A stretch of DNA of 64,000 nucleotides from a virus. The translations under genes were made by a program, and so were the position numbers. Positions within the stretch are counted from its first letter, which is position 1. Each line of letters begins with the position of its first letter. Positions 6,917-19,098 of this stretch are shown here, in pieces. The notes beneath the pieces were generated by a model. That model worked only from the letters and a program-made list of their open reading frames with translations. It was not told the DNA's origin and made no database searches. The stretch covers positions 1 to 64,000 of IMG/VR virus record IMGVR_UViG_3300042514_000757, one strand, 5' to 3'.

Positions 6917-7440
6917 GCCCCCTGACCGAGCATTTTTCTTTTATCATATTTCCACTCAGAATGTGGACCATTTGCATCAACATACTGAAGGAATGCTTGA
7001 ACATGTCTATTACCTGTGAAAGGTTCTCTCCAATGTGGATATTCAATACCTTTATAGATGCATACATCACCTACATTTAGTTCATAAGATCTGATTTCAC
7101 CATCAACTTCAAAAAATATAGGCCAATCAGTTTCCTTTTCGAGGCAACAGGTAACTCCATACTCAGAACTAGGACGGTCTGTATGACGTTCTAGGACACT
7201 TTGGTTTCCATATATCCTTCCATATGAATATGTTGGATACAGAGTCATCTGGAGTTCTCTCTCCACCTTTGGGTGCATCCACAACAAAAGAGATTCTAGA
7301 AATATAGGACTGTAATATCCAAATGCATTTGCAATAGTTGGATCTGGTGGATTATTCAATAGTAATCTCAGCATTTCCATGTTGGTAGAAATATACTTGC
7401 ACATCTCTACTGGAATTGCATTTCTAATAACTTTAATCAT
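6913..7440 (-). CDS. 2-oxoglutarate/Fe(II)-dependent oxygenase (prolyl-4-hydroxylase-like)
   Basis: 175 residues. The iron triad is visible as H86-T-D88 (RHTDRP) and H136 (YPHWREP), with R145 as the likely 2-oxoglutarate anchor on the last strands. This is the arrangement of the prolyl-4-hydroxylase branch of double-stranded beta-helix oxygenases. Such enzymes use O2 and 2-oxoglutarate to hydroxylate a protein, nucleic acid or small molecule; the substrate cannot be read from the sequence. Last gene of the island, coupled by ATGA to the next oxygenase upstream. The host-type promoter downstream begins at its end, so its transcript is separate from the early cluster. Confidence 0.8.
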   Translation of the reverse strand: MIKVIRNAIPVEMCKYISTNMEMLRLLLNNPPDPTIANAFGYYSPIFLESLLLWMHPKVERELQMTLYPTYSYGRIYGNQSVLERHTDRPSSEYGVTCCLEKETDWPIFFEVDGEIRSYELNVGDVCIYKGIEYPHWREPFTGNRHVQAFLQYVDANGPHSEWKYDKRKMLGQGA

Positions 7441-8030
7441 AGACTTGATAAATTCATGTTAATGACACAGCGATACGGTTGTGTTTTCGTATAAGAACTC
7501 GAATGGTAATAATTTCCTGGGAAAAGAAGAAGTCTACCTTTTTTTGGTGCAACTCTCTGCTTAATTGTCCACTCATTTCGTTTTAAGTAATATTCATCCC
7601 TCTCAATCGTAGGAATATCCAACTTCTGATCGAAAATTACAGTATCACCATCACAGTCATTCACATAATATAGTGCAACATAATGTTTACTGTAATTATC
7701 AACATGAGGCATATGATAATCCATTGTTGAATCTGGATTGCCAAGTACAAAATTGAACCTCATTCTATCCAGGAAGTTGAAAGAAACTCCAGTCTTCTCA
7801 GTGATAGACAATACTAGAGGATAGATTGTGTTGAAGAAGTTAGAAATTGGTTTCTGCTCTTCATACAATTCATGAGTAAATCCATGAATATTCAGAGGTT
7901 GTTTCCCATATTCATAAGCAACAATATTTTTCCTAAAGTACCAGGGAAAAGTAGCACTATTAACAATGCTCAAAATGTGATTCTGATAATCTCTACTGAT
8001 GAAATCATCTATAACGATAATATCTTTCAT
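7437..8030 (-). CDS. 2-oxoglutarate/Fe(II)-dependent oxygenase
   Basis: 197 residues with a complete triad: H109-V-D111 and H176 (NYYHSSSY), and R187 on the final strand. Between them is the strand pattern of the jelly-roll core (VALYYVNDCDGDTVIF, about 118-133, and KGRLLLFPG, about 164-172). It resembles the protein at 8641-9207 (both have LYY-NDCDGDT), so the two are diverged paralogues. It overlaps both neighbours by 4 bases. Substrate unknown. Confidence 0.8.
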   Translation of the reverse strand: MKDIIVIDDFISRDYQNHILSIVNSATFPWYFRKNIVAYEYGKQPLNIHGFTHELYEEQKPISNFFNTIYPLVLSITEKTGVSFNFLDRMRFNFVLGNPDSTMDYHMPHVDNYSKHYVALYYVNDCDGDTVIFDQKLDIPTIERDEYYLKRNEWTIKQRVAPKKGRLLLFPGNYYHSSSYTKTQPYRCVINMNLSSL

Positions 8031-8644
8031 ATAGCATGTCCAAAAAACACTAGGGTTAATCTTGCAGTATCAATATCTTTACCAAAGAAATTATCTGCAC
8101 TGTGCCAAACTCTAGGATCGAAGATATTGCATCGATTGAATCTATTCTGAACTGTAATACTTGGAATCCATTGAGATCTATGATCTTTTCTGTATTGATC
8201 ATACTTCCTTCGGCCTTCAATGTCATCAGAGTTCACTTCTTCCATGAACATCTTAGAGTAATCATCACCATTAACATCCATTCTATCATTATAGAATGTA
8301 GTACCAGAATTAATTGGAGTTGGATCTGGATTTAAATAAACCATTCCAGCAACATTATACTTATCATCGTCAGTGTGAATCCACCCACTCCCATAAGTGT
8401 CATCAATAATTTGAAAAGAAGTCTGAAGAATAGAAAATGAATTCTTATCTGGGATATGATGAACTAACTTAGATGCAAAAGTATGAAAGAGAGTAATATC
8501 TACTTCATCTAGAAAATTACTTCTCAATCCAGGCCAATTTCCACGATCACCTTTAAAATATTCCTGCTGTAAAGCAAAATTCCTAACAAGAGATGGAGTT
8601 TCAAAGAAATTGTCAATTGTAATTAGTGGTAATCTATTTTTCAT
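8027..8644 (-). CDS. 2-oxoglutarate/Fe(II)-dependent oxygenase-like protein
   Basis: 205 residues. Likely ligands are H90-T-D92 (GWIHTDDD) and H181 (VWHSADNFFG), with R195 near the end (ARLTLVFF). The insert between strands (about residues 125-165) is longer than in its neighbours and strongly charged, so substrate access should differ. Coupled by ATGA on both sides within the island. Confidence 0.75.
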   Translation of the reverse strand: MKNRLPLITIDNFFETPSLVRNFALQQEYFKGDRGNWPGLRSNFLDEVDITLFHTFASKLVHHIPDKNSFSILQTSFQIIDDTYGSGWIHTDDDKYNVAGMVYLNPDPTPINSGTTFYNDRMDVNGDDYSKMFMEEVNSDDIEGRRKYDQYRKDHRSQWIPSITVQNRFNRCNIFDPRVWHSADNFFGKDIDTARLTLVFFGHAI

Positions 8645-9207
8645 TCTGTTACAAAATTAAAAGTAAGTACAAGTCTTCGAGAACACATTTTAGGGCAACC
8701 ACTTGCATGATAGTGCTTACCATCAAAACAAACAAATTTACCTTGTTCTGGTTTTATTCTTTGTTTGATAGTATATTTTTCATTTTGTTCAGTCTCATTG
8801 AAGATATAGGTATCTCCATCACAGTCATTGAGATAATAGAGTCCAACTTTATGCTGATACTGATAATCTACATGTGGATTATTGTAAGAATATGGTAAGT
8901 GTGGCATACTGTATACAGTATTCAGAAGAAATCCAAGTCTAACTCTCAGCAAATCTTTGAGAACCATATTCTCTCTATGTAAGAATTCAAGAAGAATTGG
9001 ATAATAAGAATTCAAATACTGATTAGATTGTCCTTCATTATACATCAAATTACAAAATCCCTGAGTATTCTTCTTACCCTCGGTGGTTCTTTCGTTTGTA
9101 ACTTCAGGAAGATAATGCCAATCAAATTCTCTAGACGTTGCTAGATCAAGTAAAAACTTCTGTTGAGATTTGGGAATAATGTCTTGAATTGTAATGATGT
9201 CATTCAT
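8641..9207 (-). CDS. 2-oxoglutarate/Fe(II)-dependent oxygenase
   Basis: 188 residues with H112-V-D114 and H167 (HYHASG) plus Arg at 177-178. Paralogue of the protein at 7437-8030: the order of motifs is the same and both carry NDCDGDT between the first and second ligands. Overlaps the cupin-like gene upstream by 8 bases and the next gene by 4. Substrate unknown. Confidence 0.8.
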   Translation of the reverse strand: MNDIITIQDIIPKSQQKFLLDLATSREFDWHYLPEVTNERTTEGKKNTQGFCNLMYNEGQSNQYLNSYYPILLEFLHRENMVLKDLLRVRLGFLLNTVYSMPHLPYSYNNPHVDYQYQHKVGLYYLNDCDGDTYIFNETEQNEKYTIKQRIKPEQGKFVCFDGKHYHASGCPKMCSRRLVLTFNFVTE

Positions 9208-9910
9208 AGTTTATCTTGTAATAATTACGATCTACAGACTGATTTGAAGTCGGTAACTTTTGCCAACATGGTATACTCATAGACAAACGTTTTCCTAAAG
9301 GAACTGCCCAATGATAAGCCCTAGAAGGAATATACAATCCATCCCCAGGTTTAAGAACAACTTCGGTTTCAACCTGTAGTTGATCTTCACTCAATGTGTG
9401 CTGTTGAGTTCCTGTCTTATATAGTGACGATATGCGATTCTTAAAGATCTTCCAATGAGTTTCACCTTCTACCTGAATTATGAAGTTGGAAGGATAATCA
9501 TCATGAATTTTAAATGACTTTGAATCCTCCAGACCACAATACACATGAATTGCAGTATCTATATCAAAGATTCGTTCAAAGACATTCAATAGATCATTCG
9601 TCTTCTGACTATAGAATCCATAGTTCATGATGATGAGAGTATTACCTGCATTGATTCCATCAGCAAGAAATCTTTTGTCCTGTACAAGTTTGTTACTAAT
9701 CCAGGCCTTCTGCTGTGCAGGAATATTGATCTTGTTTGAGAACTTATCAATCATCTCAAAGTCAAACAGATGAGGATTGTTCACACAGGTCTCAACATCT
9801 TGCCAAGAAAGATAGTCTTCTGGATTGTCTAGAAGGTTTTCAAAGTAATGAGATCTATCATTCACAATCAGATTAGTCTCATTTAAAATTCTTTGTCCGA
9901 TGTTATACAT
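9200..9910 (-). CDS. JmjC/cupin-8-like 2-oxoglutarate oxygenase
   Basis: Start taken at 9910 (MYNIGQRILN, 236 aa), which overlaps the upstream stop by 8 bases; a 256-residue reading is possible. H136-D-D138 (KIHDDY) and H200 (AYHWAVP) sit in a cupin fold (VEGETHWKIF, then KPGDGLYIPSRAYH). This is the layout of the JmjC-type ribosomal and protein hydroxylases rather than of its prolyl-hydroxylase-like neighbours. A protein substrate is therefore a reasonable family-level guess. It is the only member of this branch in the island. Confidence 0.75.
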   Translation of the reverse strand: MYNIGQRILNETNLIVNDRSHYFENLLDNPEDYLSWQDVETCVNNPHLFDFEMIDKFSNKINIPAQQKAWISNKLVQDKRFLADGINAGNTLIIMNYGFYSQKTNDLLNVFERIFDIDTAIHVYCGLEDSKSFKIHDDYPSNFIIQVEGETHWKIFKNRISSLYKTGTQQHTLSEDQLQVETEVVLKPGDGLYIPSRAYHWAVPLGKRLSMSIPCWQKLPTSNQSVDRNYYKINYE

Positions 9911-10487
9911 TGTACTTGATTGCAATGTTGAATGAAATCGAGATTCTCTCTTCTTCCGTTTCGTTTTCATCTACGGAGTGTGGAACATAAGATGGAAATA
10001 GAATCAATCTACCAACCTTTGGAGGATACTTACATACGCTTCCACTGATAGGTGTATAGTTAGCAACTCTAGATGCTGAAGTTACAATGAAATCTTCCTG
10101 AAAGTTCTTGTAGAACACAATCTGAGGACTATCATCATTGCACTTCACATAATAGACACCAGATACAAATGACCCATGGTGAATGTGAGTCTTGTTTGAA
10201 TTGTTCTTTTGATTGATATTCACCCACATATTACCCATCTCTAGGGTTGTGCTTGCATCATATCCATAATCATGTAAGCACTGGTTTGCATTTACCATGA
10301 TGTAGTTATACAGTTCTGGTAGATCTTTAGGATTAATATCGTTAGATTGCCAACCCCCAAGATTACTAATGCTTCTACCAGCAGGATCTTTCTCTCTAGC
10401 AGTATAACAATACTGTAATATGGTTTTGTTATCAATTCCAGTGTCAGTCCACCACACTGGAGTAGGGAAGTAGTAATCTAGATTCAT
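9903..10487 (-). CDS. Putative 2OG-Fe(II) oxygenase (TIGR02466-like)
   Basis: 194 residues. The pattern THIHHGSFVSGVYYV (about 100-114), KVGRLILFPSYVPHSV (157-172) and ERISISFNI (180-188) matches from memory the family of phage and marine-bacterial putative oxygenases called 2OG-FeII_Oxy_5. Likely ligands are H101 or H103 and H170, with R181 for 2-oxoglutarate. It is a relative of the protein at 11804-12403. Coupled by ATGA to 10484. Confidence 0.75.
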   Translation of the reverse strand: MNLDYYFPTPVWWTDTGIDNKTILQYCYTAREKDPAGRSISNLGGWQSNDINPKDLPELYNYIMVNANQCLHDYGYDASTTLEMGNMWVNINQKNNSNKTHIHHGSFVSGVYYVKCNDDSPQIVFYKNFQEDFIVTSASRVANYTPISGSVCKYPPKVGRLILFPSYVPHSVDENETEEERISISFNIAIKYNV

Positions 10488-11023
10488 AAGACTATGGGGA
10501 TAAAACTAAAGTTTTCACTAATCATGTTAGAAGTTTGGAGATCAAATCCTAGGGTAATTCTTTCGTCATCAAAGTCTTCATCTACTCTAACGTGATGATA
10601 TCTGAATCCAGGCCCAATATAAATCTGACCTGGTTGATTCTGTATCTCATACATTATATTACCATTATGCGAATCTGTAAAGACCGTGGTTGTTTTGTGA
10701 TCAGTGATACTTATATATCCATGAATTGGAAAGTCATGACTATGTGATTGCAATACTTGATCCTTAGTGTGTAGGTTAATCCAACTCTGCAACCACAACT
10801 GATCATGAGTAGTTGTATAATCTCGAATACATCTCAATAACTCTGTATAAAGTTTGTACACATGTTGATTACATGATGCAATACTAAAGAAATTGTACAT
10901 GTAGTAATAATCTGTAGAGTTATTCCTACCAAAGATATGATGAAATTTGTTGTTGGATAACTTGATGTAGTCTGTGAGTTCTTTTACTTCGATATCAATT
11001 TTATACGTTTTGTAGTCATTCAT
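10484..11023 (-). CDS. Putative 2-oxoglutarate oxygenase-like protein
   Basis: Start at 11023 (MNDYKTYKID, 179 aa), which overlaps the upstream TGA as ATGA. The region SHSHDFPIHGYISI (about 93-106), then PGQIYIGPGFRYHHV (131-145) and ERITLGF (154-160), has the same order as in the 2OG-FeII_Oxy_5 proteins beside it. The similarity is weaker, so enzymatic activity is less certain. Candidate ligands are H94/H96, D97, H143/H144 and R155. Confidence 0.65.
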   Translation of the reverse strand: MNDYKTYKIDIEVKELTDYIKLSNNKFHHIFGRNNSTDYYYMYNFFSIASCNQHVYKLYTELLRCIRDYTTTHDQLWLQSWINLHTKDQVLQSHSHDFPIHGYISITDHKTTTVFTDSHNGNIMYEIQNQPGQIYIGPGFRYHHVRVDEDFDDERITLGFDLQTSNMISENFSFIPIVL

Positions 11024-11802
11024 ATCATAGGAGTGTAAGAGATAGCATATGTGTGAGACCACCTGAAGTCCACAGAAGAATCAATGTATGGTGAATGAGG
11101 AGTATGAGAATTGTATAGAGTCATCTTAGATTGAATACTAGGTGCAATTCCAACAGGTTCAAATCCCCAATATTCATACTCATCTTGACTCATATTCTTC
11201 CACTCAGAAAGTCTCTTCCTATCAAGAAAAAGTTCCTTACATTCATTGAATCTTGGATGAGATTCGTGTACCTGAAAGTCAAAGTACATTTTATTATCAT
11301 CACCTCTATAAGTTTTGCCCTTATATTCATATAGAGATGTTCCAGAAGTACCTTCTTTATGATCAGAAAACCAAAAATTTGCAACTACACCACAAGGAAA
11401 ATCCATATGAGGTAATCTAAAGTATTCGAGTGGTTTTGATTTCTCCCTAAAGTATACATTTCCCCACTCACTAAATCTCATATCAAAGTGAGGAGGAAAC
11501 TGAGGTTTGAAATAGGTTTTGATTAATATTAATATTCCCCTACACATCCATTCGGGTAAATGAATAGCCTCAAATGGGTTTGCTTCTTTACACTGTTGGT
11601 TGTTGTGCGTTTTGATAATAGGGAAGCAAGATGCCAATTCTTTATACATTTCAAATCCATTATCCAAGAATGGATTATCTGCTATCCAATATCCTACAGT
11701 GTCAGTTAATTTAATGTATTGGATATTCCATTCATCATACTTTTTGACTTTAATTACGTCGTCAAATTCATTTGCATCTGGATAACAATATCTAAAATTC
11801 AT
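11020..11802 (-). CDS. Putative oxygenase-like protein (260 aa)
   Basis: The longest of the jelly-roll-like proteins in the island. RLPHMDFPCGVVANFWFS (about 129-146) gives a possible H132-x-D134 pair on the first strand, and YNSHTPHSPYI near residue 235 supplies the distal His. A long charged middle (about 155-215) separates them. I place it with the 2-oxoglutarate oxygenases because of this order and its neighbours; a non-catalytic binding protein with the same fold is the alternative. Confidence 0.6.
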   Translation of the reverse strand: MNFRYCYPDANEFDDVIKVKKYDEWNIQYIKLTDTVGYWIADNPFLDNGFEMYKELASCFPIIKTHNNQQCKEANPFEAIHLPEWMCRGILILIKTYFKPQFPPHFDMRFSEWGNVYFREKSKPLEYFRLPHMDFPCGVVANFWFSDHKEGTSGTSLYEYKGKTYRGDDNKMYFDFQVHESHPRFNECKELFLDRKRLSEWKNMSQDEYEYWGFEPVGIAPSIQSKMTLYNSHTPHSPYIDSSVDFRWSHTYAISYTPMI

Positions 11803-11803
11803 T

Positions 11804-12403
11804 TCATGTTCCCTTTATGTTATAAGTAAGAACTATTCTTTCTTCATCAGTAGAATTCTCTTGTGTCCTATGATTAATCCATGGAGGAAAGATAAGAACG
11901 TCATTTGTAGTAACTTCCAATTCTCTCCACAATTGCTTCTCTGGATTGAATGGTAGTCCAAGTTTATGGTACTCTAAAGGATCTCTAAACTCAATATTAC
12001 CAGATCCTTCTGGACACTTCAGGTAAGCAGAAACAACCATGTCAGACATATTATGAACATGTTCGACGGTTTTTCCTGTTCTTCTGTGAACATTAATCCA
12101 TGACTTGGTGATGATACTATTGGAAGATAAAAGTTGATTCATCTCCCAAATATATGCAATTCTAGATACCAACCATTTGTGATAATCATTTAAGAGTGGA
12201 GAGTTATGAGGTTCTAACTCGTTATCATAAACTCCAACTCTTGCTGTGGATATTGCATCACCAGTTTCTAATAGACTAGACTCTGGTGATACAGACCAAT
12301 GAGTTCGCAGAGACTCAATCAGAGGATTAAGTTTATCTAAATCAAACTCGTATTTAAATTTCCAAATCAAAGGTGGCCATAAATGTATTGGTGTTCCATC
12401 CAT
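11804..12403 (-). CDS. Putative 2OG-Fe(II) oxygenase (TIGR02466-like)
   Basis: 199 residues. KTVEHVHNMSDMVVSAYLK (about 111-129), DVLIFPPWINHRT (168-180) and ERIVLTYNI (188-196) match the 2OG-FeII_Oxy_5 pattern, with H115 or H117 and H178 as metal ligands and R189 for 2-oxoglutarate. It is a relative of the protein at 9903-10487. Only 1 base separates it from 11802 and 3 from the coiled-coil gene upstream, so it is part of one transcript. Confidence 0.75.
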   Translation of the reverse strand: MDGTPIHLWPPLIWKFKYEFDLDKLNPLIESLRTHWSVSPESSLLETGDAISTARVGVYDNELEPHNSPLLNDYHKWLVSRIAYIWEMNQLLSSNSIITKSWINVHRRTGKTVEHVHNMSDMVVSAYLKCPEGSGNIEFRDPLEYHKLGLPFNPEKQLWRELEVTTNDVLIFPPWINHRTQENSTDEERIVLTYNIKGT

Positions 12404-15069: not shown

Positions 15070-15561
15070 TCAATCTTCCTTTTTATAACCTTTCCATCCA
15101 GGATATCTTACCCAGGCAGGTTTTTCCATTGTAGAAATACCACATGGTTTATCTGCACCTGGTTCTTCGTTCTCTGCAAACTCTAGAAGTTCTTCGAGAA
15201 CCATTAAATTCTCTTGAGACTGTTGTTTTGGTTTGGGTAAAGTCTCTTTTACATTTTTAATATGATCAACCCAAGTATTTGTTCCACTGACCATATCCTT
15301 ATATAGCATATCAAGTTGCTCTCCAACATCACCATAAGCAACTTTTCTTGCCATACCTGGATCAGTATATGGTTGATCCCTCTTCACCCAAACCATATGT
15401 CCTTTTTTGGGTGAATATTCTAGAGTCCATTCTAGAGCAACTTCATCTGGAGCATCAACCCAAAGCATTGCTGCTCCAGGTCCTTCATAAATTTCATACT
15501 CTTCTCCAGGATCTTTAATTTCGTGAATGTATCCTTGAAATCCTACTAATACCTTTTTCAT
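15070..15561 (-). CDS. Hypothetical protein, possible tail-fibre accessory (163 aa)
   Basis: An acidic soluble protein. Its centre (about residues 76-105: YGDVGEQLDMLYKDMVSGTN, then TWVDHIKNVKETL) matches the 'YaDigdQLDmLyhdi...w...I..vK' pattern seen in small phage tail-fibre-adjacent proteins. Its own late promoter (15586-15593) and the position between adhesins and the halogenase suggest a virion or assembly role. The exact role is unknown. Confidence 0.65.
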   Translation of the reverse strand: MKKVLVGFQGYIHEIKDPGEEYEIYEGPGAAMLWVDAPDEVALEWTLEYSPKKGHMVWVKRDQPYTDPGMARKVAYGDVGEQLDMLYKDMVSGTNTWVDHIKNVKETLPKPKQQSQENLMVLEELLEFAENEEPGADKPCGISTMEKPAWVRYPGWKGYKKED

Positions 15562-15585: not shown

Positions 15586-15593
15586 TATTTATA
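15586..15593 (-). promoter_or_regulatory. T4-type late promoter
   Basis: TATAAATA on the minus strand, about 25 bases before the start of the 163-residue gene. It is the nearest promoter upstream of the halogenase and the whole oxygenase island, which follow without a visible terminator. Confidence 0.75.
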
Positions 15594-16392
15594 TGTAATG
15601 TGTTACAACCACAAGTCCAGGTCTTCCATTAGATCCTCTGTGGCCATGATAGTGTGCCCCTGATCCACCAGATCCTGGTGCAGAGTGAGACTGGTGGTTA
15701 TGACTAAAGTTACCACCTTGAGGGTGTCCAGCAGCAACGGCGCCGCCGTGATGAGAAGTCCCACCAAGATTAGCACCTCTACCATGATGTGAGTCTCCGC
15801 CTCCACCATAAATGTTTAGATCTCCACCAGATCCAACTCCAGCAAGACCACCAGAGTGTTGGTTATTACGATTGGCACCGAAACCACCAGAAGCAGAGCA
15901 ATAAGATCCAAATGATGAAGCACCACCATTATCTCCTGCGTTTGCATAGTAGGTACCATTCACTTCTCCAGAAACAGTTACTGGAACCGAAGAAATGGAT
16001 TGCACATTAATAATTCTTTCAGAATATCCTCCAGCACCTCCACATTCACCATGGCCAGATCCTCCTCCTCCACCACCTTGAACCTTTACGTGAATAAAAC
16101 GAATATTTCCAGGTTTTGTCCAAGTACCAGACGAAGTGAATACCTGAGTGCTTAGAATATTACCAGTAGATCCCAATGGTTGCCAAGATGCTGTAGATCC
16201 ACTGGTCTCTAACCATTTTCCAGAATTACCAGATTGGGATGGTAATGTAGAATTAGTAGTACCGCTAATTGTACCGTTAATAACCAAGTTACTAACTTGA
16301 AGTCTTCCTACAACAGACAAAGAACCAGAAACTAGATCAAATCCACTAGTTCCACTAAAATCTCTAATATTTGTAACTTTAATAGTACTCAT
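15589..16392 (-). CDS. Polyglycine tail-fibre adhesin, copy A (267 aa)
   Basis: The N-terminal third (about 1-95) is a fibre or attachment domain (MSTIKVTNIRDFSGTSGFDL...LVINGTISG). The C-terminal part from about 100 is a Gly/Ser/His-rich domain with VQGGGGGGSGHG, GAGGYSER and a conserved end RGSNGRPGLVVVTHYI. It is nearly identical to copy B (16400-17200) except at a few loops. This glycine-rich plan is shared with distal-tip receptor-binding adhesins such as gp38 of Salmonella phage S16, where hypervariable loops sit between polyglycine strands. Likely at the fibre tip, binding the host surface. Confidence 0.75.
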   Translation of the reverse strand: MSTIKVTNIRDFSGTSGFDLVSGSLSVVGRLQVSNLVINGTISGTTNSTLPSQSGNSGKWLETSGSTASWQPLGSTGNILSTQVFTSSGTWTKPGNIRFIHVKVQGGGGGGSGHGECGGAGGYSERIINVQSISSVPVTVSGEVNGTYYANAGDNGGASSFGSYCSASGGFGANRNNQHSGGLAGVGSGGDLNIYGGGGDSHHGRGANLGGTSHHGGAVAAGHPQGGNFSHNHQSHSAPGSGGSGAHYHGHRGSNGRPGLVVVTHYI

Positions 16393-16399
16393 TTGTTTA

Positions 16400-17200
16400 T
16401 CACTTGAAATGTGTTACGACAACTAATCCAGGTCTTCCATTAGATCCTCTATGACCAGAGAAATATCCACCAGATCCACCAGATCCTGGTGCAGAGTGAG
16501 ACTGGTGGTTATGACTAAAGTTACCACCTTGAGGGTGTCCAGCAGCAACAGCACCACCAAAGTGTGATGCACCACCAACAGAAGAATAGTTGTGGTGTGA
16601 TTGTCCACCACCACCATAAATGTTTAGATCTCCACCAGATCCAACTCCAGCAAGACCACCAGAGTGTTGGTTAGTTCTATTAGCACCAAGACCACCAGAT
16701 GCTGAACAGTAAGCTCCAAACGAGGAAGCGCCACCATTATCACCAGGACCAGAATAATAAGTACCATTGACTTCTCCAGCAACAGTTACTGCAACTGTGG
16801 AAACCGATTGTACGTCAATAACTCTCTCTGAGTAACCACCGGCTCCTCCACCTTCACCATGTCCAGATCCACCGCCGCCACCGCCTTGTACTTGAACTTT
16901 GATGAATCTTACACCAGTTGGTTTTGTCCAAGTACCAGATGAGGTGAATACCTGCATACTGGTAATATTGTCAGATGTTGGTTTTGTGATCCACTGTGGA
17001 TTTGTGCCATCAGTAGAAAGAATTCTACCAGCATTACCTGACTGTGAAGGGAGATACTGTTTATTGTTTCCACTAATAGTACCATTAATAACAAGGTTCG
17101 AAACTGTCAGAGTTCCGTTAGCAGTAACTGCACCAGAAGATAAACTAAATCCACCTGTATTACTTAGATCTTTAATTGCTGCAACTTTTAGGGTACTCAT
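16400..17200 (-). CDS. Polyglycine tail-fibre adhesin, copy B (266 aa)
   Basis: Tandem paralogue of the protein at 15589-16392. The glycine-rich half matches almost residue for residue, apart from short loops: YSGPGD versus YANAGD, QSHHNYSSVGGASHFGG versus DSHHGRGANLGGTSHHGG, and GYFSGH versus AHYHGH. The N-terminal part has diverged more, and this copy has its own late promoter (17223-17230). Two receptor-binding variants carried side by side could widen host range or form a hetero-oligomer. Confidence 0.75.
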   Translation of the reverse strand: MSTLKVAAIKDLSNTGGFSLSSGAVTANGTLTVSNLVINGTISGNNKQYLPSQSGNAGRILSTDGTNPQWITKPTSDNITSMQVFTSSGTWTKPTGVRFIKVQVQGGGGGGSGHGEGGGAGGYSERVIDVQSVSTVAVTVAGEVNGTYYSGPGDNGGASSFGAYCSASGGLGANRTNQHSGGLAGVGSGGDLNIYGGGGQSHHNYSSVGGASHFGGAVAAGHPQGGNFSHNHQSHSAPGSGGSGGYFSGHRGSNGRPGLVVVTHFK

Positions 17201-17222: not shown

Positions 17223-17230
17223 TATTTATA
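17223..17230 (-). promoter_or_regulatory. T4-type late promoter
   Basis: TATAAATA on the minus strand in the short gap between the ALK-type glycine-rich gene and adhesin copy B, 22 bases upstream of the latter's ATG. Confidence 0.75.
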
Positions 17231-17260: not shown

Positions 17261-18157
17261 TTATGCTCTAGTGATGTAAATATATCCGCTGCCGTCACCA
17301 GAGGTATTGCCGCCAGTAGTATTTTGTGGATTAGATCCAGAATTAAATGATCCACCTCCAGCAGCATCATAACTCCAAGGTGAGGCACCGCCTCCAGAAT
17401 ATCCACCGCCAGCGCCAGCACCGTTGGTTCCACCACCACCGCCACCGCCACCGAATCCTCCGCGAGCATTAGCACCACCTACAGAACCATTAGTAAAAGA
17501 TTGACCAAACCACGATCCACTACCATTACCAGTTAATCCACCACCGCCGCCAGCATTACCATATCCGCTGCCGCCAGATCCTCCTGAACCACCTCCAGCC
17601 CAAGAAGTACTAAAACCATTCTGACCAGAGTTTCCTGCAGGACTACCACTTCCACTAAATCCAGAAGCAGATCCTCCTCCTCCACCACCAGCAATAATTA
17701 ATGGTGAATTATCAGTATAGCAGACATAAGTGCCTCCTCCACCACCAGCATCATAGTAATTATTTTCTCCGTTTTGCCCAACAACCATTTTCAATTGCGT
17801 TCCAGAAGATAGTGAAAATGTTCCAACCATCAATGCTCCCCATCCACCCCATCTACCCCAACCATTGCTATATCCACCCCTAGCTCCACCTACAGTAATT
17901 CTGTAAGATCCACTTGAAGGGACTATCCAATATTGATATCCAGAAATAACGTTATAGAATGAGATATTATTTTTCCAAGCATCAACACCTATTCCAGTAA
18001 GTCCATTTATACCTTGCGATAAACTTGGTCCAGTATTATATGCTTGTCCACCTGGAGTAAATCTAGCCTCGGTAAAAGCATAGCGAGATCCACCAGAACC
18101 TGATGACGGACCAACTGGAATAAGATTTGATTTAAAACCAGTAATAAATGGTGCCAT
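17261..18157 (-). CDS. Glycine-rich adhesin with ALK-type glycine-rich domain (298 aa)
   Basis: Start at 18157 (MAPFITGFKSNLIPVG); a longer reading to 18199 overlaps the upstream gene more and lacks support. From about residue 78 the order GSYRITVGGARGG, WGALMVGTFSLSSG, LKMVVGQNG, AGGGGGTYV and PLIIAGGGGGG follows the layout of the glycine-rich domain of animal ALK/LTK receptors and its bacterial and phage relatives, which pack polyglycine-II helices. The C-terminus (GDGSGYIYITRA) closes the fold. Most likely a fibre or tip protein. Confidence 0.7.
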   Translation of the reverse strand: MAPFITGFKSNLIPVGPSSGSGGSRYAFTEARFTPGGQAYNTGPSLSQGINGLTGIGVDAWKNNISFYNVISGYQYWIVPSSGSYRITVGGARGGYSNGWGRWGGWGALMVGTFSLSSGTQLKMVVGQNGENNYYDAGGGGGTYVCYTDNSPLIIAGGGGGGSASGFSGSGSPAGNSGQNGFSTSWAGGGSGGSGGSGYGNAGGGGGLTGNGSGSWFGQSFTNGSVGGANARGGFGGGGGGGGTNGAGAGGGYSGGGASPWSYDAAGGGSFNSGSNPQNTTGGNTSGDGSGYIYITRA

Positions 18158-18162
18158 AGTAA

Positions 18163-19098
18163 TTACGCAAACTCTGACATCTGTAGTAATGGAATCCAAC
18201 TGTTAGAAGTTCCACCACTTGAATCTGTATATTGAGTAACTCTCATCATAGAAACTCCAACCACAACTGTTCTATTTGCAGTTGCAGCAGGTGCTGATCC
18301 ACCACTCCATCTTGCAGTTCCAATGCTTGTACCATCTAACATAATTGTACCAGAAGGTCTATATGCAGTTGAACCATTCTGATATATAATCGTGAAACCA
18401 AATGCTCTGTTGGAGTCTACTCCACCAGTTCCAATACTTGTTTGAGGGAGACCTCTCAGGTTTATCATAAAATTGTTCTGTAGATTAGTGATATAAACGA
18501 TTCCACCGTCAAGATAGTCAATATTAACAACTGGAGAAGTATCAAAATCAGGTAATCTGTAAGATACCATCTTTTCTCTAATGGCACCAACATCAAATCG
18601 TGCTCCTACAGTATTTAAAATGTCATAAACATCTAAATCTTCGTAAGCAGCAACGTTCGAATCTTCACCAATAACATAGAAATTTGCACCATTTTCAATT
18701 GTTAGGGTATATCCACTAGCAATTTCTACTGGACCTGCACTATAAGCATTAGTAAACTGAGCACCACCGTTAGCAACTGGACCAATAGTAATGTTTTCAT
18801 CGATACTATTAGAGTTTGTTCTAATGTAAGAAGTATCTTTATTACCTACGTGAGGACCACCAGCACCAACAAGAGTCCATCCATCTAGACCCTGGCCGTT
18901 TGAGTTGCTGACATAAACCTCTACCTTATCTTCAGTTGTATTGAATCTAAGTGTACCGTAAGCAACACCAGTAGGACGTTGAGCAGTAGTACCAGTCGGT
19001 AACTGCAAAACACTATTAGTGTTTAAGAACTGTAGTGAGGAAATCAGAGCTTGAGTACTAGTACTAATCTGATTACCATTGATTTGCTGTAATGCCAT
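18163..19098 (-). CDS. Virion/tail-fibre protein (311 aa)
   Basis: An N-terminal segment with LPTGTTAQRPTGVAYGTLRF at about residues 34-53 is a motif common in phage fibre and structural proteins that carry a 'TTAQRP' linker. It is followed by Ser/Thr/Gly-rich beta repeats ending WIPLLQMSEFA. In the fibre block, 31 bases downstream of the 1229-residue gene, with a possible late promoter (19124-19132). Confidence 0.7.
   Translation of the reverse strand: MALQQINGNQISTSTQALISSLQFLNTNSVLQLPTGTTAQRPTGVAYGTLRFNTTEDKVEVYVSNSNGQGLDGWTLVGAGGPHVGNKDTSYIRTNSNSIDENITIGPVANGGAQFTNAYSAGPVEIASGYTLTIENGANFYVIGEDSNVAAYEDLDVYDILNTVGARFDVGAIREKMVSYRLPDFDTSPVVNIDYLDGGIVYITNLQNNFMINLRGLPQTSIGTGGVDSNRAFGFTIIYQNGSTAYRPSGTIMLDGTSIGTARWSGGSAPAATANRTVVVGVSMMRVTQYTDSSGGTSNSWIPLLQMSEFA

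Follow-up and report, generated by a model that had tools for sequence, protein, structure and literature searches.

Two tandem genes on the minus strand of a marine T4-like cyanomyovirus, known from an 83.8-kb IMG/VR virus record, encode glycine-rich proteins, both of them good candidates for determinants of host choice. We find that the two copies have undergone gene conversion, and that in the clade to which this virus belongs the variable loops of their glycine-rich part fall into types that, judged by silent sites, predate the framework around them. Our proposed reading is that the genes encode two receptor-binding fibre tips, with a converted framework, two sets of loops and a common chaperone, and we give this proposal as a whole roughly even odds (a probability of about 0.5). 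Coordinates refer to the window, by which we mean the whole 64,000-nt stretch of the record that was analysed.

The twins differ in their N-terminal halves and in three loops

The first gene of the tandem, copy A, encodes a putative fibre-tip protein of 266 residues (16400..17200, minus strand; PF21722, 33.8 bits; phrog_863, E 2.8e-64). After a gap of 7 nt it is followed by copy B, a putative fibre-tip protein of 267 residues (15589..16392, minus strand; PF21722, 33.6 bits; phrog_863, E 3.1e-60); further along come a 163-residue ORF, the gene of a flavin (tryptophan) halogenase and several oxygenase genes in a row. Among named phages, Synechococcus phage S-CREM1 (Kyanoviridae) is closest in the twin region, where the DNA is 82% identical along all 1612 bases, and another IMG/VR contig (L001) has a twin pair identical to that of the window. 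Directly upstream of copy A lies a third, different glycine-rich ORF (17261-18157, minus strand; phrog_22713); a comparable place is taken in syn9 (gp36) and in L020 by glycine-rich ORFs that belong to phrog_1589.

A first-pass annotation of the sequence had described two tandem proteins with alike glycine-rich C-terminal halves, as both ORFs bear out, and had stated that they differ only in short loops. Over the 267 aligned columns the copies are identical in 195 and different in 72, with 38 of the differences in residues 1-80 (about half of these residues), 13 in residues 81-148, 16 in the three named loops and 5 elsewhere, which leaves 34 for the C-terminal half. The statement holds for the glycine-rich part, residues 142-262, where 16 of 19 differences fall inside the three loops, but not for the whole proteins.

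Inspected by eye, the runs of the glycine-rich part are joined by six turns, as described for Pam3 gp24, and we number the loops L1-L6 against that description. The three named loops are turns 2, 4 and 6, delimited by sequence comparison. On the minus strand, copy A has L2 at residues 149-153 (16742..16756), L4 at residues 200-215 (16556..16603; type QSHHNYSSV) and L6 at residues 243-249 (16454..16474; type GYF), and copy B has L2 at residues 149-153 (15934..15948), L4 at residues 200-216 (15745..15795; type xSHHxRG) and L6 at residues 244-250 (15643..15663; type AHYH). The mean mismatch between twins is 0.18, 0.54 and 0.34 in these turns, and 0.04, 0.13 and 0.08 in turns 1, 3 and 5, which are almost constant. 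Conserved histidines sit in turns 1, 3, 4 and 5 (among 96 distinct rows, H114 is kept in 81, H179 in 95, H202 in 96, H230 in 83, H232 in 87 and H235 in 89). The motif HxHxxH, at copy A residues 230-235 and equivalents, is found in 82 of 96 distinct full-length rows and recalls the HxH iron sites of T4 gp37 fibre tips, as PMC11705849 reports them.

The C-terminal head is predicted to resemble Pam3 gp24

An AF2 model of copy A, built with 54 family members as input, has a pLDDT of 82, with every ten-residue block of residues 81-200 and 251-266 at 86 or above and a weak block at residues 221-230 (54). The best solved match of the model is gp24, the tail fibre of the cyanophage Pam3 (7ypx_A), which superimposes on residues 77-266 with a VIA Z of 21.2 (182 residues, rmsd 2.3) and is found by Foldseek at E 7.3e-9. 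Lower matches are a chain of the Bxb1 tail tip, at Z 14.7, and the glycine-rich domain of ALK/LTK, at Z 8-9.7. Residues 77-266 are predicted to form a TNF-like domain followed by a glycine-rich lattice. Pam3 gp24 belongs to phrog_863 (E 9e-18), as the twins do; against PF21722, which the twins match, it scores 23.8 bits, 0.5 below the cut-off of 24.3. Aligned pairwise with the C-terminal half of copy A it scores 169.5, compared with a mean of 87 for 300 shuffles (sd 13.5, maximum 124), although the order of the glycine runs alone can raise this score. The hhalign comparison of the twin profile with Pam3 gp24 (1%) is uninformative, and sequence searches of the PDB with the family profile and with the C-terminal half of copy A gave nothing useful.

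The N-terminal half is modelled with low confidence (block means of 57-78), and residues 1-76 contain no helix, so that the N-terminal helical docking bundle of Pam3 has no counterpart there. Because this bundle is absent from the model, we call only the head, and not the whole protein, Pam3-type. The N-terminal halves (residues 1-80; 16961..17200 in copy A and 16153..16392 in copy B, minus strand) are position-specific in trees, and they are probably docking pieces.

The framework of the head bears traces of gene conversion

Among 70 loci with room on both sides (redundant loci counted), 34 have one copy, 20 have two and 16 have three; since nearly half make do with a single copy, two copies are not needed. 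Twin N-terminal halves in two-copy phages are 35-58% identical. Trees of the N-terminal half group the copies by gene position, and trees of the C-terminal half group them largely by phage. In DNA trees of the WAM clade all three pairs join by phage in the C-terminal half and by position in the N-terminal half, and a clade of first copies (a-clade) is rejected (AU p 0.0025). For the window set, the joined pairs in the C-terminal DNA tree are those of L004, of L007 and of the window, the last together with S-CREM1 copy B, and an a-clade is again rejected (p 0.0056 with 7 rows, 5.9e-5 with 10 rows). AU tests at the protein level reject paralogue clades for the N-terminal half (p 3e-6, 0.011 and 0.035) and do not reject position clades for the C-terminal half (p 0.112 and 0.095). 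The clades were named after the trees had been seen.

The window twins carry direct traces of the exchange. Two identical tracts, of 77 nt (residues 218-243 by codon bounds; 16472..16549 in copy A, 15661..15738 in copy B) and 63 nt (residues 176-197 by codon bounds; 16610..16675 in copy A, 15802..15867 in copy B), all on the minus strand, stand amid many silent differences, and the longest silent-free run has P = 0.001. The near-identity of the C-terminal halves is therefore due in part to recent copying of DNA. Within both tracts copy B of the window differs silently from copy B of S-CREM1, so the copying is probably later than the split between the two phages. Of 55 tested pairs, which are not independent of one another, 6 have a silent-free run with P <= 0.001 and 14 one with P <= 0.05. 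The first-pass suggestion that the pair may serve as a reservoir for recombination in host-range shifts is thus borne out only as regards exchange between the copies, by the tracts and trees and by a copy-A-like loop in copy B of two of seven relatives.

Several relatives have irregular copies. Copy A of S-CREM1 (L066 12001-12807) has in-frame stops clustered at about codons 123-143 within a scrambled-looking stretch, with both ends intact, and is either a pseudogene or an assembly error. The second copy of syn9, gp39 (L068 8807-9985), has 392 residues, a shifted frame and a repeated stretch of the C-terminal domain, reflecting either recent recombination or an assembly fault; the otherwise nearly identical copy of Syn10 is normal. 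The middle of three copies in P-TIM40 (L071 4415-6004) has an extra C-terminal module that matches positions 94-306 of phrog_1325, a family of unknown function; a likeness to lectins was seen by eye only, got no backing from Pfam or the PDB, and was dropped. A window ORF at 18163-19098 also matches the N-terminal part of phrog_1325, and the occurrence of these parts in two places is a sign of module shuffling.

A probable chaperone gene follows the twins

The gene directly downstream of copy B (15070..15561, minus strand; 163 residues) is a probable fibre chaperone, judged by synteny, an AF2 model and a weak fold match to Pam3 gp25 and Mu Tfa. An ORF of this family follows the last twin copy in 74 of 76 sources, with a gap of -1 to 126 nt, and the other two (L010, L055) end inside the tandem. 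Among named phages, twins and chaperone-like ORF occur in the same 20 records, and five more records match the ORF only over a stretch of 25-26%. The model has an N-terminal domain of five strands (residues 2-59) followed by helices (68-152), an order that resembles the plan of Pam3 gp25; chaperones of the Pam3 gp25 and Mu Tfa type combine a beta-sandwich at the N-terminus with a helical domain for trimerisation. In the VIA search the Pam3 chaperone (7ypx_a) is first with Z 3.9 and the Mu chaperone (5yvq_B) fifth with Z 2.2, both weak and both on the N-terminal domain. Foldseek found no match under E 1 for the model, a PDB sequence search with the ORF gave nothing useful, and a direct profile comparison with Pam3 gp25 was uninformative.

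A motif search finds the late promoter box of T4 type, TATAAATA, on the minus strand upstream of both copy A (17223..17230, 22 nt away) and the probable chaperone gene (15586..15593, 24 nt away); this is the late promoter box of T4-like cyanophages according to PMC2984593. Of 48 distinct loci, 26 have the box no more than 60 nt from the first copy, and 9 of 47 have it equally near the downstream ORF, where 0.007 per locus is expected; across the whole window its count (7, with 5 expected) is not above chance.

Loop types mostly follow gene position in the clade of the window

Because the three loops had been named from the differences of the window pair itself, the loop claim was put to the test on related phages. 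The 27 twin pairs used come from 20 loci and include the window pair, as L001; their mismatch amounts to 0.386 in the loops, 0.177 in the rest of the C-terminal half and 0.533 in the N-terminal half. When the loop positions are shifted circularly, only one of 186 placements, the unshifted one, reaches the loop mismatch, and the same holds for entropy. Near-identical loci, cut copies, the phages S-CREM1 and syn9 with their broken or fused copies, and three groups (S-RIM44, Sf and P-TIM40) did not enter these tests; the three groups are covered in the analyses of N-half identity and silent runs. Comparing loop and framework change in related phages, the check proposed with the first-pass loop claim, thus finds loops that vary about twice as much as the rest of the C-terminal half, but it is the N-terminal halves that mismatch most.

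Silent sites reveal how old the loop types are. In the window pair silent differences abound in the loop at 197-216, with a silent-free stretch on either side; for this pair alone the counts are 10 of 13 in loops and 44 of 139 in the framework. The seven phages of the window's clade give 58 of 107 in loops and 323 of 926 in the framework, a loop value that 2 of 186 shifts reach. Among the same seven phages, loop identity is 0.610 at the same position, 0.445 across positions and 0.533 within a phage, and the corresponding framework values are 0.847, 0.807 and 0.853. In five of the seven the loop types follow position, QSHHNYSSV/GYF in copy A and xSHHxRGG/AHYH in copy B (the window's own copy B reads RGA for RGG, and copy A of L005 has the variant NSHHGYSCP), and L004 and L007 have an A-like loop in copy B. 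This division of five and two by loop type was made after the loops had been seen, and the figure for all seven phages is the one to use. Judged by silent sites, the loop types of this clade are more ancient than the framework.

Elsewhere in the family the pattern is different. Silent differences show no loop excess in the L8 clade (22 of 56 in loops, 203 of 395 in the framework), where loops are kept by position, or in the WAM clade (25 of 68 and 170 of 415), where the loops are homogenised too, and over the 27 pooled pairs the excess is not significant (205 of 448 and 1441 of 3444; 39 of 186 shifts). A general protection of loops from conversion is ruled out for the pooled pairs, and we limit the claim that loops are spared to the window's clade. 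The bispecific tip put forward in the first-pass annotation accordingly has indirect backing in that clade, from its two old loop types arranged by position, and finds no such backing in the L8 clade, the WAM clade or the pooled pairs.

The homogenised WAM loops, with an identity within each phage of 0.885, fit a different account, in which both copies bind one receptor from two places on the tail. Their distinct N-termini would dock them at these places, conversion would keep the heads alike, and the loop differences would be tolerated drift or a legacy of host lineage. That the N-terminal halves are the strongly position-specific part and that one chaperone-like gene serves for all copies speak for it as well. 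We regard this account as possible but doubtful, since it does not lead one to expect what five of the seven phages in the window's clade show, two loop types that follow position, nor the greater age of these loops than of the framework at silent sites.

Proposed model and alternative assemblies

Our preferred reading, two receptor-binding tips, would work as follows. The twins would be two receptor-binding tip proteins of a fibre of a T4-like cyanomyovirus, each docked by an N-terminal piece of its own and bearing a C-terminal head like that of Pam3 gp24, in which a TNF-like domain is joined to the glycine-rich lattice. Six turns between strands would lie at the distal end of the head, three of them variable and three near-invariant, with most of the conserved histidines. 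The chaperone encoded by the next gene would fold the heads of both copies, and the framework of the heads would be overwritten again and again by recombination between the tandem copies, so that both keep to a single packing plan and suit a single chaperone. The two loop sets of the window's clade would be kept apart, giving one virion two related binding surfaces, and occasionally a whole loop would be overwritten too. Computation shows the tandem, the homology, the split between N- and C-terminal halves, the conversion tracts, the loop ages in this clade and the place of the chaperone-like gene. The fold is a prediction, and we infer that the proteins would be trimeric, sit at the tip, share the chaperone and have two specificities.

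If the twins form trimers, copies A and B (and C, where present) might also co-assemble in a single tip, with conversion of the framework keeping the interfaces compatible and each subunit adding its own loops. The closest relative with a solved structure, Pam3 gp24, forms a trimer, the homogenised part of the twins is the framework that would form the interfaces, and phages have one to three copies. We think such mixing rather unlikely: the trimer contact of Pam3 lies mostly in the N-terminal helices, the twin N-terminal halves differ between copies, and phages with a single copy must form homotrimers.

The loop pattern had been taken at first pass to match tip adhesins of the gp38 type. The predicted fold and the neighbouring genes support the term tip adhesin, at the level of a model; gp38-type is not supported. 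In that design, known from T2 and S16, each twin would be a single-chain adhesin that has a three-layer polyglycine sandwich and is seated on a gp37-like trimer. The twins do resemble such adhesins in length and in glycine-rich motifs with variable loops; the Pam3 authors, too, see a resemblance of Pam3 gp24 to S16 gp38 (PMC9608196). The gp38 families PF05268, PF21721 and phrog_2056 have no twin match at E 0.01, whereas S16 gp38 matches all three, and on this test membership is rejected. Structure prediction, suggested at first pass as a check, returned an adhesin-like head, but Pam3 gp24 and not gp38 as top match; S16 gp38 does not appear in the fold-match lists of the copy A model, which does not by itself exclude a gp38 fold, and hhalign of the twin profile with S16 gp38 (3.8%) is uninformative. 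Overall we consider gp38-type caps very improbable. The first match of the model in a viral library is syn9 Gp38, a relative of the twins themselves. Since syn9 gene numbers run serially from gp35 to gp49, this name is an ordinal and does not denote T4 gp38. Confusion of the two names may be the source of the label 'tail fiber assembly' on phrog_863, a label that the position of the probable assembly protein, in the next gene, suggests is misplaced.

A recent simple duplication, with loops that have since diverged fastest, would agree with the faster variation of loops than of the rest of the C-terminal half across the family, but is hardly credible, given N-terminal halves that lie far apart, of types (a and b) common to many phages, so that the duplication is older than these phages, and identical tracts that sit between stretches rich in silent differences, for which an even spread is rejected in the window pair by the silent-run test.

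Halogenase and oxygenase genes beside the twins

A flavin halogenase (PF04820; 13426-15030, minus strand) lies beyond the probable chaperone gene, followed by a row of eight small genes (7437-12403, minus strand). Six of the eight have matches to 2OG-Fe(II) oxygenase or JmjC models at E 0.01, half of these matches (three) being below the curated cut-off. All 73 twin loci that are long enough have a halogenase-like ORF. One could imagine that these enzymes modify the conserved His/Tyr/Asn-rich turns to yield halogenated or hydroxylated adhesins, an idea that we hold to be improbable. Of 26 records counted with halogenases above 40% identity, 20 bear twins; the other six, and more distant ones, have halogenases without twins, some far from fibre genes, which weakens the view of the halogenase as a partner of the twins alone. 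Among records named S-RIM44 (L075, L083), five hold the twin-halogenase stretch at 99.5-100%; in four others just 9% of the stretch is matched, at 75%, and a distant halogenase lies elsewhere, a discrepancy due either to a difference in the whole module or to mixed naming.

Discussion

The system most like the twins is Pam3 gp24 (PDB 7YPX, 7YFW) with its chaperone gp25. According to PMC9608196, gp24 is a trimer that the product of the next gene folds, and receptor binding is proposed for its distal tip; its glycine-rich part has six loops, and its N-terminus is a helical bundle with most of the trimer contact. Common to both systems are the head, TNF-like and glycine-rich (predicted for the twins), phrog_863, a variable distal tip and a chaperone-like gene of similar length directly downstream. 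Unlike the twins, Pam3 has a single fibre gene with a helical-bundle N-terminus, while the twin N-terminal halves are short, free of helix in the model and present in two or three versions, and the two proteins have no direct sequence-profile match. The gp38 adhesins of T2, S16 and PP01 also have a glycine-rich lattice and variable distal loops at a fibre tip (PMC12892980), but belong to other Pfam and PHROG families, and gp38 has a beta-helix domain where Pam3 has the TNF-like one (PMC9608196).

Other comparisons cover single features. The short tail fibres of Vequintavirinae consist of two similar paralogues with one chaperone gene (PMC8594841), but are related to Mu GpS and reportedly show little allelic variation, where the twins have framework conversion and differing loops. 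The S-TIM4 gene ORF108 is likewise a cyanophage fibre gene with recombination, for which its authors propose copying from similar stretches of the phage's own genome during laboratory evolution (PMC6224464), but there the recombination takes place within one large YadA-domain gene and not between tandem tip genes. The ALK/LTK ligand-binding domain matches in fold and is unrelated in function, and the mycobacteriophage Bxb1, whose tail tip also matches, is a different type of phage. In the accessible portions of the open-licence PMC literature we recognised no description of the combination seen here, paired tip genes with a converted framework and differing loops.

Reviews state that the tail-fibre genes of T4-like cyanophages are missing or not recognisable by comparison with T4 (PMC2984593 and PMC2993671). 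The twin locus is a concrete candidate for host recognition, together with its probable chaperone, in syn9, Syn10, S-WAM1, P-RSM6, P-TIM40 and others. The rule that it suggests, to convert the framework and spare the loops, would let a phage maintain two binding surfaces on a common scaffold.
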